A stretch of DNA of 64,000 nt, from assembly GCA_945872795.1 (NCBI GenBank), contig CAMCAZ010000009.1, positions 1-64,000 on the forward strand, read 5' to 3'. The notes under the pieces are model-generated. The model saw only the letters and a program-made list of their open reading frames with translations, did no database searches and was not told the DNA's origin. Made by a program: the position numbers and the translations under genes. Below, in pieces: positions 49,331 to 54,803 of this stretch (positions are counted from its first letter, which is position 1; each line of letters opens with the position of its first letter). The stretch comes from Chryseobacterium gleum. Lineage in GTDB: Bacteria; Bacteroidota; Bacteroidia; Flavobacteriales_F; PHOS-HE28.

Positions 49331-52108
49331 ATGAAGCACCTGTACGCCCTTCCCCTGCTCCTGCTTTCGCTGTGGAGCCCCCTTGTTGCCACGGCCCAAG
49401 GCCCCGCCTACCTGCCCGGCGAAGTGCTGGTGATGCTGAAGCCCGGCGAGGTGGCCCAGTACGTGGCGGACGACCTGCAGCTGCTGAACGGCCAGCGCAC
49501 GGGGCTGGCGGTGGCACAGGAGCTGAGCGCCCCGATGCGCACCTGGCTGCTGCGCTTCGATGCCACGGTGATGGCGCAGCAGGAGGTGCTGCGCGCGGTG
49601 AGCGCCCACCCGGCGGTGATGCTGGCGCAGAACAACCACGTGGTGACGGAACGCCAGGTTCCCAACGACACGCAGTACGGCCAGCAGTGGCACCACCAGA
49701 ACATCAACAGCGAGGCGGCGTGGGAGATCAGCACCGGCGGGGTGACGGCCACGGGCGACAGCATCGTGGTGTGCATCATCGAAACGGCGGACCTGCCCCA
49801 CGCGGACCTTACCGCCAACGCCTGGAGGAACCTGGGCGAGGTGGCGGACAACAACATCGACGATGACCAGAACGGCTATGTGGACGACCGCCTGGGCTGG
49901 AACCCACCGGGCAACAACGACGCGGTGTTCGGCGGTGGCCACGGCACGCAGGTGGCCGGCATGATCGGTGCGAAAGGCAACAACGCGAGCGGTGTGGCCG
50001 GTGCCAACTGGAACGTGAAAATGATGGTGGTGAACTACGGCGGCACCAGCGAAGCACAGGTGGTGGCGGCCTACACCTACCCCCTGGTGATGCGGCGCCT
50101 CTACACCAGCACCGGCGGTGAGAAGGGCGCCTTCGTGGTGGCCACCAACGCCAGCTGGGGCATCGACAACGGCGACCCGGCCGATTCACCGATCTGGTGC
50201 GCGATGTACGATACGCTGGGCACGGCGGGCATCCTGAGCTGCGGCGCCACGGCGAACAACAACGTGAACGTGGACGTGGTGGGCGACCTGCCCACGGCTT
50301 GCGCGAGCGATTTCATGATCAGCGTGACAGCGACCAACAATGCCGACGTGCGCACCTTCAGCGGATACGGCATCACCACCATCGATGTGGGCGCACCGGG
50401 TGAGAACGTGCGCACCACCAGCATCGGCGGTGGCTATGGCAGCACCAGCGGCACCAGCTTCGCCAGCCCGCTGACGGCCGGGGTGATCGGCCTGCTGTAC
50501 AGCGCTCCCTGCCCCTCGCTGATGGCCCTGGTGAACGCGGACCCGGCGGCTGGTGCGTTGTACATCCGCCAGATGCTCTTCGAGGGCGTGGACGCCGTGG
50601 GCAACCTGGGCGGTCAGACGGTTACAGGCGGCCGCATCAACGCGGGCACCAGCATGGAACTGCTGATGGCCGGATGCTCCGACTGCGCGCCGCCCTTCGG
50701 TGCGGCACTGAGCGTGGAGAGCGCGACCAGCGCCACCTACACCTGGAACACGGCCGCCGATGGCCCCTACAGCGTGCGCTACCGCCCCCAGGGCACGACC
50801 GAATGGTCGGTGGTGGAAGGCCTGACGGGCACCAGCTACACCGCCACGGACCTGGAGGCCTGCACAGCCTATGAGTTCCAGGCCGAGGCCGCCTGCAGCG
50901 AAGGCAGCAGCGGGTTCAGCCCCAGCACCCTGCTGGTCCCGGAACTGGTGGCCGTGCCCACGGTGAGCCTCAACGGTCGCCTGCAATTCTGCGAGGGCGG
51001 CACCCGCATCCTGAGCTCCAGCGCCCCCACCGGGAACGTGTGGAGCACCGGCGACACGGGCAGCAGCCTGACAGTGAACAGCGGCGGCACCTACACGGTG
51101 ACGGTGAGCGGCGCGTGCAACAGCGAGACCTCGGCACCCGTGACGCTGGAGATGCTGCCCACTCCCACGCCCGTGGCGACGGATGTGGTGCTGACGGAAC
51201 CCGGCACCGCCACACTGACCGCCGAGGGTGACAGCATCCGCTGGTATGCCAACGAGACGGGCGGTGCGTCGCTGGGCAGCGGCAGCCCCTGGCAAACGCC
51301 CTTCCTGAACAGCGGCACCACCTACTGGGTCAGCAACACGGTGGTGAGCCCCACCACGCCGGTGTTCGGCGCCAAGGAGGACCGCACCACCACCGGTGCC
51401 TTCCACACCAACGGCAGCTTCTGGGTGGTGTTCACGGCCACGGAGGCCTTCACCATCCGCAGTGTTAAGGTGTATGCCAACGGTGCGGGCAGCCGCCCCA
51501 TCGGTCTGGTGAACATGCCCAGCGGGGGCGTGGTGACCCAAGGCAGCTTTGCGCTGCCCAACGGCGAGAGCCGCGTGGACCTGAATTTCCAGGTGCCGGG
51601 TCCGGGCCAGTACGGTCTGCGGATCATGAGCGGCGACCCACAGCTGTGGCGCGATGGCATCGGCAGCAACCCCGGCTTCCCCTTTGCGCTGGGCACGGTG
51701 GGCACCATCACGGGTACCACCGCGACAGGCTCCAACGCCACCGCGCTCTACTACTTCTTCTATGATTGGGAGGTGGAGCCCCTGCCGTTGGTCTGTGAAA
51801 GTCCACGGGTGCCGGTGAACGTGGACCTGCAGGTGGGCATGACCGAGGCAACGAACACCAGCGGAGTGATCGTCTACCCCCACCCTGCGGACAACGAGCT
51901 CACCTTCGAACTGAATGGCAGCACTGCCGGCCAGACCATGCAACTGATGGTGACCGACAATGCCGGGCGACGCGTGGCCACCCGCTCCCTGGAAGGTGCA
52001 CGCACGGTGGTGAGCACCAGCGCACTGGCCAACGGTCTGTACACCTATCGCGTGGCCGGGCCGGGCGGTGAAGTGGCGCGCGGGACCTTCGTGGTGGCGC
52101 ATCCTTAG
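49331..52108 (+). CDS. S8 (subtilase) family T9SS cargo protein, copy 1
   Basis: A secreted protein of 925 residues from the ATG at 49331 (signal MKHLYALPLLLLS, cleavage near ATAQ23); an ATG at 49322 would add three. A propeptide-like region precedes PNDTQYGQQWHHQNI. The subtilase domain (about 140-440) has His204 in GGGHGTQVAG, Asn273 in ATNASWG and Ser376 in SGTSFASP. The position of the catalytic Asp is Glu151 (VVCIIETADLPH). A fibronectin-III-like domain (about 460-540), an Ig-like domain and a beta-domain follow. Last comes a type A T9SS sorting domain (VIVYPHPADNELTFEL to TFVVAHP). It should be released or anchored at the surface; activity with Glu for Asp is uncertain. A close paralogue follows directly. 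Confidence 0.88.
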   Translation: MKHLYALPLLLLSLWSPLVATAQGPAYLPGEVLVMLKPGEVAQYVADDLQLLNGQRTGLAVAQELSAPMRTWLLRFDATVMAQQEVLRAVSAHPAVMLAQNNHVVTERQVPNDTQYGQQWHHQNINSEAAWEISTGGVTATGDSIVVCIIETADLPHADLTANAWRNLGEVADNNIDDDQNGYVDDRLGWNPPGNNDAVFGGGHGTQVAGMIGAKGNNASGVAGANWNVKMMVVNYGGTSEAQVVAAYTYPLVMRRLYTSTGGEKGAFVVATNASWGIDNGDPADSPIWCAMYDTLGTAGILSCGATANNNVNVDVVGDLPTACASDFMISVTATNNADVRTFSGYGITTIDVGAPGENVRTTSIGGGYGSTSGTSFASPLTAGVIGLLYSAPCPSLMALVNADPAAGALYIRQMLFEGVDAVGNLGGQTVTGGRINAGTSMELLMAGCSDCAPPFGAALSVESATSATYTWNTAADGPYSVRYRPQGTTEWSVVEGLTGTSYTATDLEACTAYEFQAEAACSEGSSGFSPSTLLVPELVAVPTVSLNGRLQFCEGGTRILSSSAPTGNVWSTGDTGSSLTVNSGGTYTVTVSGACNSETSAPVTLEMLPTPTPVATDVVLTEPGTATLTAEGDSIRWYANETGGASLGSGSPWQTPFLNSGTTYWVSNTVVSPTTPVFGAKEDRTTTGAFHTNGSFWVVFTATEAFTIRSVKVYANGAGSRPIGLVNMPSGGVVTQGSFALPNGESRVDLNFQVPGPGQYGLRIMSGDPQLWRDGIGSNPGFPFALGTVGTITGTTATGSNATALYYFFYDWEVEPLPLVCESPRVPVNVDLQVGMTEATNTSGVIVYPHPADNELTFELNGSTAGQTMQLMVTDNAGRRVATRSLEGARTVVSTSALANGLYTYRVAGPGGEVARGTFVVAHP

Positions 52109-52136
52109 GCAAGCTTCCAAGTACGACCCACATGCT

Positions 52137-52163
52137 ACCGCCCCGGCCAACCGCCGGGGCGGT
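52137..52163 (+). terminator. Terminator of subtilase copy 1, abutting the next promoter
   Basis: A perfect 11-bp stem, accgccccggc (52137-52147) and gccggggcggt (52153-52163), loop caacc, followed by acttttg. The last stem base is the first base of a TACTTTTG -7 element for the next gene. Confidence 0.7.
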
Positions 52164-52170
52164 ACTTTTG
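52163..52170 (+). promoter_or_regulatory. -7 element TACTTTTG for the second subtilase gene
   Basis: Exact TAnnTTTG match, 17 bases before the ATG at 52188. It shares its T with the terminator stem; the T-rich part could instead be only the terminator tail. Confidence 0.45.
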
Positions 52171-52187
52171 TGTGGATATCCATGCCC

Positions 52188-54803
52188 ATGAAACGCTCGT
52201 TCCCCTTCTTCGTCCTTGCTGTTGCACTCTTCTTCGGCCCTGCGGTCCAGGCGCAAGGCCCGGCCTACGTGCCCGGAGATGTGCTGGTGATGCTGCGCGA
52301 AGGCAGCAGCCCCCAGGAACTGGTGCAGGACCTGCGCCTGGTGAACGGTGTGCTTACGGGCCTGGAGGTGAAGCGCGAACTGAGCGCCCCCCTGCGGTCG
52401 TGGTCGCTGCACTTCAATGCCGATGCCCTGCACCAGGCCGACATGCTGCGCGCCGTACGCGGCCACCGCAGCGTGCAACTGGCCCAGAACAACCACCTGG
52501 TGGAATGGCGCCAGGTACCCAACGATGTGCAGTACACCGAGCAGTGGCACCACCAGAACATCGGCAGCGAGGCGGCGTGGGACCTCAGCACCGGCGGGCT
52601 CACGGCCACGGGCGACACCATCGTGGTGTGCATCATCGAGAACAGCGACCTGCCCCACGTGGACCTGATCGACAACGCGTGGTTCAACTTCGGCGAGGTG
52701 CCCAACAACGGCGAGGACGATGATGCCAACGGCTACGTGGACGACTTCCGCGGTTGGAACCCGGCGAACAACAACGACAACGTTTACGGCGGCGGGCACG
52801 GCACCCAGGTGGCCGGCATGATCGGTGCAAGCGGCAACAACGGTGCGGGCGTGGCCGGTGCCAACTGGAACGTGAAGATGATGGTGGTGGACTATGCCAG
52901 CGTGGACGAGGCCGATGTGGTGAGCGCCTACACCTATCCCTGGGTGATGCGCCGCCTCTACAACGAGACCAACGGTGAGAAGGGCGCCTTCGTGGTGGCC
53001 ACCAACGCCAGCTGGGGCATCAACAACGGGCAACCGGCGGATTCGCCCCTGTGGTGCGCGGTGTACGATTCACTGGGAACGGTGGGCATCCTGAGCTGCG
53101 GCGCCACCTCCAACAGCAACGTGAACATCGATGTGGTGGGTGACCTGCCCACGGCCTGCGCCAGCGACTTCATGGTGAGCGTGACCGCCACGGACATCAA
53201 CGACCAGCGCACCTTCAGCGCTTACGGTGCCACCATGGTGGATGTGGGCGCGCCGGGTGATGACGTGCTGACCACCAGCATCGGTGGGGGCTTCGGCACC
53301 ACCAGCGGAACCAGCTTCGCCAGCCCGCTCACCGCCGGGGTGATCGGCCTTCTCTACAGCGCGCCTTGCGCCTCCCTGATGGCGCTGGTGGATGCCGACC
53401 CGTCGGCCGGCGCCCTGTATGTGCGCAACAAACTGTTCGAAGGCGTGGACGAGGTGGGCAACCTGCCCGGCCAGACGCTGACCGGCGGACGCATCAACGC
53501 GGGCAGCAGCATGCAGCTGATCATGAACAACTGCGGCGCCTGCCCCGGAGCCTATGCGCTGAGCGCCACCAGCCCTGAACTGGCCACCAGCATCCTGAGC
53601 TGGAACTCGCCCACCGCCAGCACCTTCGATGTGCGCCACCGCGCCGTGGGAGCCACCGACTGGACCGAAGTGAGCGGCCTGGGCACCAACAGCCTGTATC
53701 TGAACGGGCTGGACCTGTGCACGGCCTACGAGTTCCAGGTGCGCCCGCTGTGCGAAGGCGAGGAGAGCGACTACGGCATGAGCTTCGTGTGGACCAGCGA
53801 AGGCTGCTGTACCGCACCGCTGAACGTGATGCCAGGCTTCGTGGGCGAGAACATCGCCAACGTATCGTGGGGCACGGTGCTGGTCGCTGAAGCGTACACC
53901 GTGCGCTACCGTGTGCAAGGCAGCGCCACATGGACGGAGATCACGGGGTTCACCGGCAACTCTGCGGAGATCCCTGGTCTGGAGCCCTGCACGGCCTACG
54001 AGGTGCAGGTGACGAGCACGTGCAATGGCGTAGGCGCCGAGTGGTCGCCCAGTGTGGACCTCACCACCCTGGGTTGCGGCTGGTGCGTGGACAATGCGTA
54101 CTGCCCATCGTCCGGCGACGATAGCTCCTCGGAATGGATCGCGGGCGTGTCCTTTGCAGGCCTCAATAACACCTCCGGTGATGATGATGGCTACGGTGAT
54201 TACACCGGTCAGGCCACCCTGCTGGTGGCGGGCAACAACTATCCCATCACCCTCACTCCGGGCTTCTCCTTCATCGCCTTCTCCGAAGCCTGGCGCGTAT
54301 ACCTGGATGCCGATCAGGACGGTCAGTTCGCGGAGACCGAGGTCGTGTTCGCCAGCCCCACGGCCAGCAATGCCGTGGTGAACGGTACCATGAACGTGTC
54401 GGCGGATGCCCTGCCCGGCGTGACCCGCCTGCGTGTGGTAATGAGCTACCAGAACCCGGTGACCGAGGCCTGTGGCGGATTCGACTACGGGGAGACCGAG
54501 GACTACTGCGTGGAGCTGCAGGGCACCGTGGGTGTGCAGGACCTGGCGAACGAACGGGTGGTGAGCGTATTCCCCTCGCCGGCCGACCGTACCATCTTCT
54601 TCGACCTGACCGAGGTGGTGAACGGACCGCTGACCATCACGGTGCTGGACGAGAGCGGACGGGTGGTGGCCCGCAAGCCCTTGCAGAACGGTCACGCCAC
54701 ACTGACCACCGCCGACCTGGCCGATGGCCTGTACATCTACCGCATCACCGGCACGGACCGCGAGGTGGCCACCGGCCGCTTCATGGTGAGCCACCTGTGG
54801 TAG
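52188..54803 (+). CDS. S8 (subtilase) family T9SS cargo protein, copy 2
   Basis: A paralogue (871 aa) of the preceding gene, aligned without gaps for the first 380 residues (MKRSFPFFVLAVALFF; signal end near VQAQ23). His204, Asn273 and Ser376 are conserved. Glu151 (VVCIIENSDLPH) again replaces the catalytic Asp. Over residues 261-330 the two copies agree at 59 of 70 positions. The C-terminal half differs: two fibronectin-III-like domains (DWTEVSGLGTNS near 490, TWTEITGFTGNS near 580) and a GEVED-type domain (WRVYLDADQDGQFAETEV and ending GETEDYCVEL). A type A T9SS sorting domain (VSVFPSPADRTIFFDL) ends the protein. Possibly a different target specificity. Confidence 0.88.
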   Translation: MKRSFPFFVLAVALFFGPAVQAQGPAYVPGDVLVMLREGSSPQELVQDLRLVNGVLTGLEVKRELSAPLRSWSLHFNADALHQADMLRAVRGHRSVQLAQNNHLVEWRQVPNDVQYTEQWHHQNIGSEAAWDLSTGGLTATGDTIVVCIIENSDLPHVDLIDNAWFNFGEVPNNGEDDDANGYVDDFRGWNPANNNDNVYGGGHGTQVAGMIGASGNNGAGVAGANWNVKMMVVDYASVDEADVVSAYTYPWVMRRLYNETNGEKGAFVVATNASWGINNGQPADSPLWCAVYDSLGTVGILSCGATSNSNVNIDVVGDLPTACASDFMVSVTATDINDQRTFSAYGATMVDVGAPGDDVLTTSIGGGFGTTSGTSFASPLTAGVIGLLYSAPCASLMALVDADPSAGALYVRNKLFEGVDEVGNLPGQTLTGGRINAGSSMQLIMNNCGACPGAYALSATSPELATSILSWNSPTASTFDVRHRAVGATDWTEVSGLGTNSLYLNGLDLCTAYEFQVRPLCEGEESDYGMSFVWTSEGCCTAPLNVMPGFVGENIANVSWGTVLVAEAYTVRYRVQGSATWTEITGFTGNSAEIPGLEPCTAYEVQVTSTCNGVGAEWSPSVDLTTLGCGWCVDNAYCPSSGDDSSSEWIAGVSFAGLNNTSGDDDGYGDYTGQATLLVAGNNYPITLTPGFSFIAFSEAWRVYLDADQDGQFAETEVVFASPTASNAVVNGTMNVSADALPGVTRLRVVMSYQNPVTEACGGFDYGETEDYCVELQGTVGVQDLANERVVSVFPSPADRTIFFDLTEVVNGPLTITVLDESGRVVARKPLQNGHATLTTADLADGLYIYRITGTDREVATGRFMVSHLW

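Follow-up and report, generated by a model that had tools for sequence, protein, structure and literature searches.

The Asp-His-Ser catalytic triad of subtilases (protease family S8) is a textbook active site, and most descriptions of the family require the Asp. Two adjacent genes, here called S8a and S8b, encode subtilase-like proteins that carry Glu at this position, which raises the question of whether they can be working proteases. Both lie in a 64,000-nucleotide stretch of Chryseobacterium gleum DNA (hereafter 'the window'), which comprises positions 1 to 64,000 of contig CAMCAZ010000009.1 in assembly GCA_945872795.1. The original prediction, made from the letters of the window, proposed either that a Glu-His-Ser triad functions in these proteins or that they are binding proteins built on a dead protease. 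The evidence described below favours a working triad: only Asp or Glu is found at the acid position among relatives, the other catalytic residues do not vary, the domain is under purifying selection, a propeptide-like fold precedes the catalytic domain, and the Pseudomonas aeruginosa protease SprP offers a parallel. On the basis of sequence comparisons, a structural model and analogy, we estimate a probability of roughly 0.8 that S8a and S8b are active Glu-His-Ser subtilases exported by the type IX secretion system (T9SS), rather than pseudoproteases.

The proposal that the window holds two tandem subtilase-like genes with T9SS tails was confirmed by profile searches. Pfam Peptidase_S8 (PF00082) matches residues 142-392 of both proteins, with 87.5 bits for S8a and 77.2 bits for S8b against a cut-off of 21.8, and both also pass the cut-off of 23 bits for the T9SS type A tail of NCBIfam TIGR04183. 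The gap-free alignment of the two copies likewise bears out the unusual features described for the acid motif. Glu151, which occupies the position of subtilisin Asp32, comes right after the strand IVVCII in each protein. Position 153, the Gly of the usual D-x-G motif, is Ala or Ser, and His157 is located at Glu+6 rather than at the usual +7, so that one residue fewer precedes it. Among the other catalytic residues that had been named, His204 and Ser376 are indeed intact. However, Asn273 proved not to be the Asn of the oxyanion hole; this residue is Asn309 in the motif GATAN, which is aligned with AAAGN of deseasin. Asn273 sits in VATNASW, where Asn273-Ser275 is the equivalent of the Asn123-Ser125 zone of subtilisin described in the available text of a savinase study (PMC11593635), and its column varies among the 207 domains introduced below (190 Asn, 9 Thr, 7 Ser and 1 X).

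Judged by these residues, S8a and S8b fall outside the classical Asp-His-Ser group, having Glu151 as the acid and no Gly153 to complete the D-x-G motif, and they fall within a group defined by Glu at the Asp position together with His and Ser. They differ from the S53 sedolisins (Ser-Glu-Asp), in which Glu replaces the catalytic His, in that His204 is invariant and it is the acid that has become Glu. They also differ from pseudoproteases of the CspC type, where His and/or Ser has been lost, in that both residues are invariant in all 207 domains.

Relatives were collected by a class-wide search of 395 genomes drawn evenly from a larger group, with at most five candidates per genome; counts therefore refer to the matches listed, which extend to about E = 1e-67. 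After identical or contained rows were collapsed, 207 non-redundant domains from the listed places were aligned. The alignments leave out a Glu-type locus cut by a contig end (L137), the first copy at locus L016, which is without its N-terminal half, and four other S8 loci of the source genome (contigs 49, 7, 15 and 39); the locus on contig 100 of this genome was read and has Asp. Position 151 is Asp in 146 of the aligned domains, Glu in 60 and a gap in one (row L464), and His204, Ser275, Asn309 and Ser376 are each invariant (207/207). Because position 151 is occupied only by an acid and the other machinery is invariant in these 207 domains, we favour an active Glu-His-Ser protease. The identity of the acid is coupled to the length of the adjoining loop: His157 is found at +7 in all 146 Asp sequences, and among the Glu sequences at +6 in 54, at +8 in four and at +7 in two. 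The two Glu sequences with +7 spacing, L228 (genome G250) and L274 (genome G374), also keep Glu-x-Gly and are placed elsewhere in the tree, and they probably represent separate single-step changes from Asp to Glu. L274 is on a long branch and has HGD in place of HGT.

Glu at position 151 is not a matter of chance: unrelated S8 genes from viral contigs, serving as a control, have Asp wherever the position is covered (83 of 83 rows, with another 126 rows that do not reach it). The 36 control rows that cover all three triad columns are uniformly Asp-His-Ser with +7 spacing. These control genes were picked by their serine motif from among the matches listed, and were aligned with a profile that includes the Glu sequences; they also added depth to the alignments. 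No relatives were found in viral contigs by scans with an alignment of 23 close sequences or with an Asp relative, and a plasmid search returned 28 records with distant S8 genes.

Within the genus, the gene is present in 42 of the 45 genomes searched, including all 30 with a completeness of 90% or more, and the three genomes without it are 72-84% complete; searching at the order level gave no genomes beyond the 45 of the family-level search. Glu occupies position 151 in all 42 genomes with the gene, one of which was read from a fragment at a contig end. Outside the genus, Glu-type homologues occur in two further families of the class sample (f52 and f19), and L027-L029, which come from Flavobacteriales and Crocinitomicaceae records, are also of the Glu type. 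In one genome (G164, f9) both types are present, L164 with Asp and L181 with Glu.

The catalytic domain of S8a was modelled with AlphaFold2 from 66 sequences, giving a predicted local distance difference test score (pLDDT) of 96.0 and a predicted template modelling score (pTM) of 0.94. In this model, position 151 comes immediately after a strand formed by residues 144-150, and the helices of His204 and Ser376 start one residue before each of them. The closest solved structure is deseasin MCP-01 (PDB 3vv3), with a Z score of 47.2 and a root-mean-square deviation of 1.5 over 311 residues at 34% identity, and malarial SUB1 is matched with Z scores of 41-42. A first model, built from 23 close sequences, had a mean pLDDT of 45 and was used solely for its prodomain part, where pLDDT is approximately 65-93. 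Here residues 23-104 adopt a propeptide-like beta-alpha-beta-beta-alpha-beta fold that matches the PC1/3 prodomain with a Z score of 9.2 (73 residues) and the prosegment of subtilisin BPN' with a Z score of 7.6 (65 residues). A Pfam I9 search of the prodomain gave no match. The prodomain ends in a conserved NNHxVxxR ahead of VPND.

With regard to export, the tails recognised by TIGR04183 score 26.4 bits each with Pfam PF18962, just below its cut-off of 27. A homologue of SprA (TIGR04189) is present in the source genome as two pieces on two contigs (2136.8 and 412 bits), which shows by homology that this genome has a T9SS, the translocon being represented in the analysis by SprA. A weak match to NF033708, which is a ChiA tail family and not PorU, is uninformative. 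The signal peptides of both proteins were called by eye.

We propose that S8a and S8b are serine endopeptidases with a subtilisin fold, in which Glu151, His204 and Ser376 would form the triad and Asn309 would contribute to the oxyanion hole. Placed at the end of the strand that carries Asp32 in subtilisin, Glu151 would take on the role of Asp32, orienting and charging His204 through a predicted Glu-His contact. Its longer side chain may be accommodated by a re-set loop, wherein the Gly34 equivalent is lost and one residue fewer, or one more, precedes His157. The proteins would be synthesised as zymogens whose propeptide-like domain is probably removed during maturation, perhaps by autoprocessing. 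After secretion through the T9SS, they would act on their substrates at or outside the cell surface.

The suggestion that Glu151 might mark a clade proved nearly correct. One main lineage accounts for 58 of 60 Glu sequences. A tree of 170 rows, made without the motif columns, places 57 Glu sequences in one clade with a support value of 84, not starred, in the Shimodaira-Hasegawa-like approximate likelihood ratio test (SH-aLRT); the Glu sequence L169 falls just outside six Asp rows on this tree. However, a smaller tree of 55 selected rows, with 34 drawn from the 58 Glu rows of the main lineage and 21 from the 110 Asp rows, requires two changes among its Glu rows; this tree also served for an approximately unbiased (AU) test. 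The best tree nests six Asp sequences within them, and Glu monophyly is seen in only 4% of 200 bootstrap trees. Forcing a single Glu clade costs 1.28 log units (p-AU 0.217), and thus a single origin is not rejected. The trees are consistent with either one gain and a possible reversal, or two gains, in the main Glu lineage. Under both scenarios it arose from homologues of the Asp type, whose identity to it still reaches approximately 65%.

The 57-tip clade represents 10.5 substitutions per site and a mean of 7.8 parsimony changes per site, and 79 of its 341 sites are unchanged. No change is seen in this clade at positions 151, 204, 309 and 376, whereas positions 152-156 change 10, 16, 7, 9 and 15 times. 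The ratio of nonsynonymous to synonymous substitution (dN/dS; Nei and Gojobori method, NG86) is 0.11, 0.13 and 0.18 in comparisons with orthologues and 0.375 between S8a and S8b, and by these estimates the S8 domain is under purifying selection.

The original prediction also argued that an identical swap in two otherwise different copies must predate their duplication. This conclusion is right, but the two-copy argument is weak alone: at same-residue sites in codons 121-150, all 25 of 25 codons are identical between S8a and S8b, as gene conversion would give. Stronger proof comes from the wider family, and the swap is taken to predate the duplication because the whole family has Glu; on this evidence, the tandem duplication is much younger than the swap. 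Among same-residue codons across residues 105-455, S8a and S8b share 208 of 267, and S8a and its orthologue in L015 share 194 of 306. This codon sharing looks like gene conversion between the two copies, and the protein tree pairs each copy with its orthologue. A further tandem Glu-type pair (L108 and L150; genome G038, contig 1, 2284203-2288098) consists of members that lie far apart in the tree, and therefore tandem pairs in the genus have more than one history.

Activity is also favoured because a Glu-His-Ser subtilase from elsewhere is active and its Ser-to-Ala variant is dead. SprP (PA1242) of P. aeruginosa, with predicted residues E262, H299 and S499, is placed in the Glu-His-Ser family of a 2007 survey in the available text of its report, where it clears skim milk and cleaves Suc-AAPF-pNA, and where the S499A variant is inactive (PMC3937732). 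The accessible part of a later paper has the protein purified (PMC4618607). Like S8a and S8b, SprP is portrayed in these texts as a secreted multi-domain subtilase with a predicted Glu-His-Ser triad. Several points nevertheless weigh against our interpretation. As described in the same texts, SprP is a distant protein with another layout, in which the spacing between Glu and His is 37 residues compared with 53 in S8a and S8b, and the available portions of the SprP literature contain no report of a mutated SprP Glu. Some binding proteins can retain a conserved active site, so that conservation by itself is not proof of activity. Moreover, other sites that are mostly conserved also separate the Glu lineage from the 22 Asp relatives nearest to it (V225A, L329M, H381L, T/A385V and I416L), and these differences could represent retuning or altered function.

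If the proteins are active, there are two ways to view the swap itself. We tentatively suggest, at somewhat less than even odds, that this is a separate Glu-His-Ser lineage in which the swap and a new length of the loop from the acid to His39 (from seven residues to six or eight) became fixed jointly. Glu and Asp would then not be interchangeable, each requiring a particular loop geometry, and the Glu form might have distinct kinetics or pH behaviour that is exploited by a genus-core, T9SS-exported enzyme. The other view, which we consider less likely than not, is that Glu simply stands in for Asp, neutrally and with no effect on function, and that the proteins are active subtilases of the ordinary sort. 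It is a special case of an active Glu-His-Ser protease, and its probability overlaps with the one given above. It draws on the existence of Asp relatives at 63-65% identity, and on L228 and L274, whose retained Gly and +7 loop imply that Glu can arise without a loop change. Against neutrality, the absence of any change at position 151 in the 57-tip lineage, even though Asp and Glu are one base apart, and the strict coupling between loop length and acid suggest that the two residues are not interchangeable there.

We judge it improbable that S8a and S8b are pseudoproteases, in which a non-cutting subtilisin fold would serve as a surface binding protein or scaffold. The catalytic Asp and the following Gly are gone, fn3, Ig and GEVED modules are located downstream of the S8 domain, and there are precedents among subtilases, such as CspC, which keeps its Asp and has lost its His and Ser according to the available text of PMC6636752. 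Yet CspC is the reverse of the case considered here, where the swap is of acid for acid with no drift in the Glu lineage, and where His, Ser and the oxyanion Asn are invariant (207/207). SprP, as depicted in the texts cited above, is moreover an active example with the same predicted triad.

Far less probable still is an arrangement wherein Asp154 or Asp159 is the catalytic acid and Glu151 is structural. Asp154 is present in both window copies, and it had been named at the outset as the residue that might occupy the catalytic position. It can be dismissed as a conserved catalytic residue, and it is no replacement acid because it is Asp in only 41 of the 58 Glu-lineage rows (N 13, S 2, V 1, E 1). 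Asp159 is conserved (D in 205 of 207 rows, with one E and one gap), but it is conserved equally in the Asp-type relatives, which argues for a role of its own, and Glu151 follows the strand IVVCII gap-free and in the model too. A sequencing or assembly artefact, already considered unlikely in the original prediction, has a negligible probability and no support that we could find; it is refuted by the relatives, which have Glu in all 42 genus genomes with the gene and in other families, and the frames are without stops.

Table 1. Coordinates, in window positions, of S8a, S8b and their principal parts.
Feature	Position	Strand	Description or evidence
S8a, 925-amino-acid T9SS subtilase	49331..52108	+	signal peptide (by eye), prodomain, S8, fn3, Ig_7, T9SS tail
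S8a prodomain, residues 23-108	49397..49654	+	propeptide-like fold, structural matches, conserved columns
S8a catalytic domain, residues 105-455	49643..50695	+	AlphaFold2 model; deseasin MCP-01 superposition
S8a Glu151 codon (GAA), catalytic-acid position	49781..49783	+	alignment; Asp/Glu only in 206/206 readable relatives
S8a His204 codon, putative catalytic base	49940..49942	+	His in 207/207
S8a Asn309 codon, putative oxyanion-hole Asn	50255..50257	+	Asn in 207/207; aligned with deseasin AAAGN
S8a Ser376 codon, putative nucleophile	50456..50458	+	Ser in 207/207
S8a T9SS type A sorting domain, residues 848-922	51872..52096	+	TIGR04183, 28.9 bits
S8b, 871-amino-acid T9SS subtilase	52188..54803	+	prodomain, S8, fn3, GEVED, T9SS tail
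S8b Glu151 codon, catalytic-acid position	52638..52640	+	gap-free alignment to S8a
S8b His204 codon	52797..52799	+	alignment to S8a
S8b Asn309 codon	53112..53114	+	alignment to S8a
S8b Ser376 codon	53313..53315	+	alignment to S8a
S8b T9SS type A sorting domain, residues 794-867	54567..54788	+	TIGR04183, 35.0 bits

As in the window, a family 2 glycosyltransferase (GT2) homologue is found just downstream in 17 of the 22 loci taken from a scan of public genomes, and therefore the locus is regarded as stable; the other five loci include two that are cut by contig ends. The C-terminal part of S8a, from residue ~543, recurs in many Bacteroidota loci (most of L032-L087) with the protease domain outside the match, and is possibly a widely shared T9SS cargo module. 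Within this part, residues 671-847 are without a Pfam match (window positions 51185-52105 correspond to residues ~619-925). A more distant S8 group (L136 and L138-L145, represented in the source genome on contig 100) has open frames of up to 3129 residues. Around the Ser its motif is GNSFA(I/V)P in place of GTSxAxP, Asn273 is replaced by Thr, and some members are without the Gly after Asp.

The acid swap is real, family-wide and old, and it occurs in an otherwise intact active site. A large Glu lineage beside Asp relatives that are approximately 35% different constitutes a natural experiment on how acid identity and the adjoining loop contribute to catalysis. It also calls for caution in annotation, as failure of the D-x-G motif should not lead to such proteins being called dead or being missed. 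We do not consider these proteins to be a new category of enzyme.

Glu-His-Ser subtilases are already known as a kind. In 2007, Siezen, Renckens and Boekhorst reportedly recognised a subset of prokaryotic subtilases in which the Asp is replaced by an equivalent Glu, and members of this subset could include the present lineage. Our literature search, the coverage of which was without this 2007 survey as the likeliest place to list them, found no paper on Glu-type Bacteroidota subtilases. Descent from Asp-type Bacteroidota homologues suggests an origin separate from that of SprP, with which we compared the proteins by description only. In the available SprP texts, an N-terminal domain of unknown function (DUF) stands where S8a and S8b have their prodomain, a T9SS tail is not reported, and the protein is largely confined to Pseudomonas. 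CspC and CspA share the subtilase fold with an altered triad, and Ser-His-Glu triads occur in other hydrolase folds, for example in glucuronoyl esterases, as stated in the accessible text of PMC6069808. Deseasin MCP-01, unlike S8a and S8b with their Glu151, has Asp at the acid position in a canonical D-T-G. The nearest Asp-type homologues, L162-L167, mostly share 62-65% of their S8-domain residues with S8a, and those loci with flanking sequence have a prodomain end and C-terminal tail like those of S8a. These relatives have D-D-G with +7 spacing, and HGI or HGV follows the catalytic His where subtilases have HGT. Compared with these systems, and within the literature covered, what seems new is a conserved, T9SS-exported Glu lineage whose nearest relatives have Asp (63-65% identical) and whose acid swap is coupled to a change in loop length.

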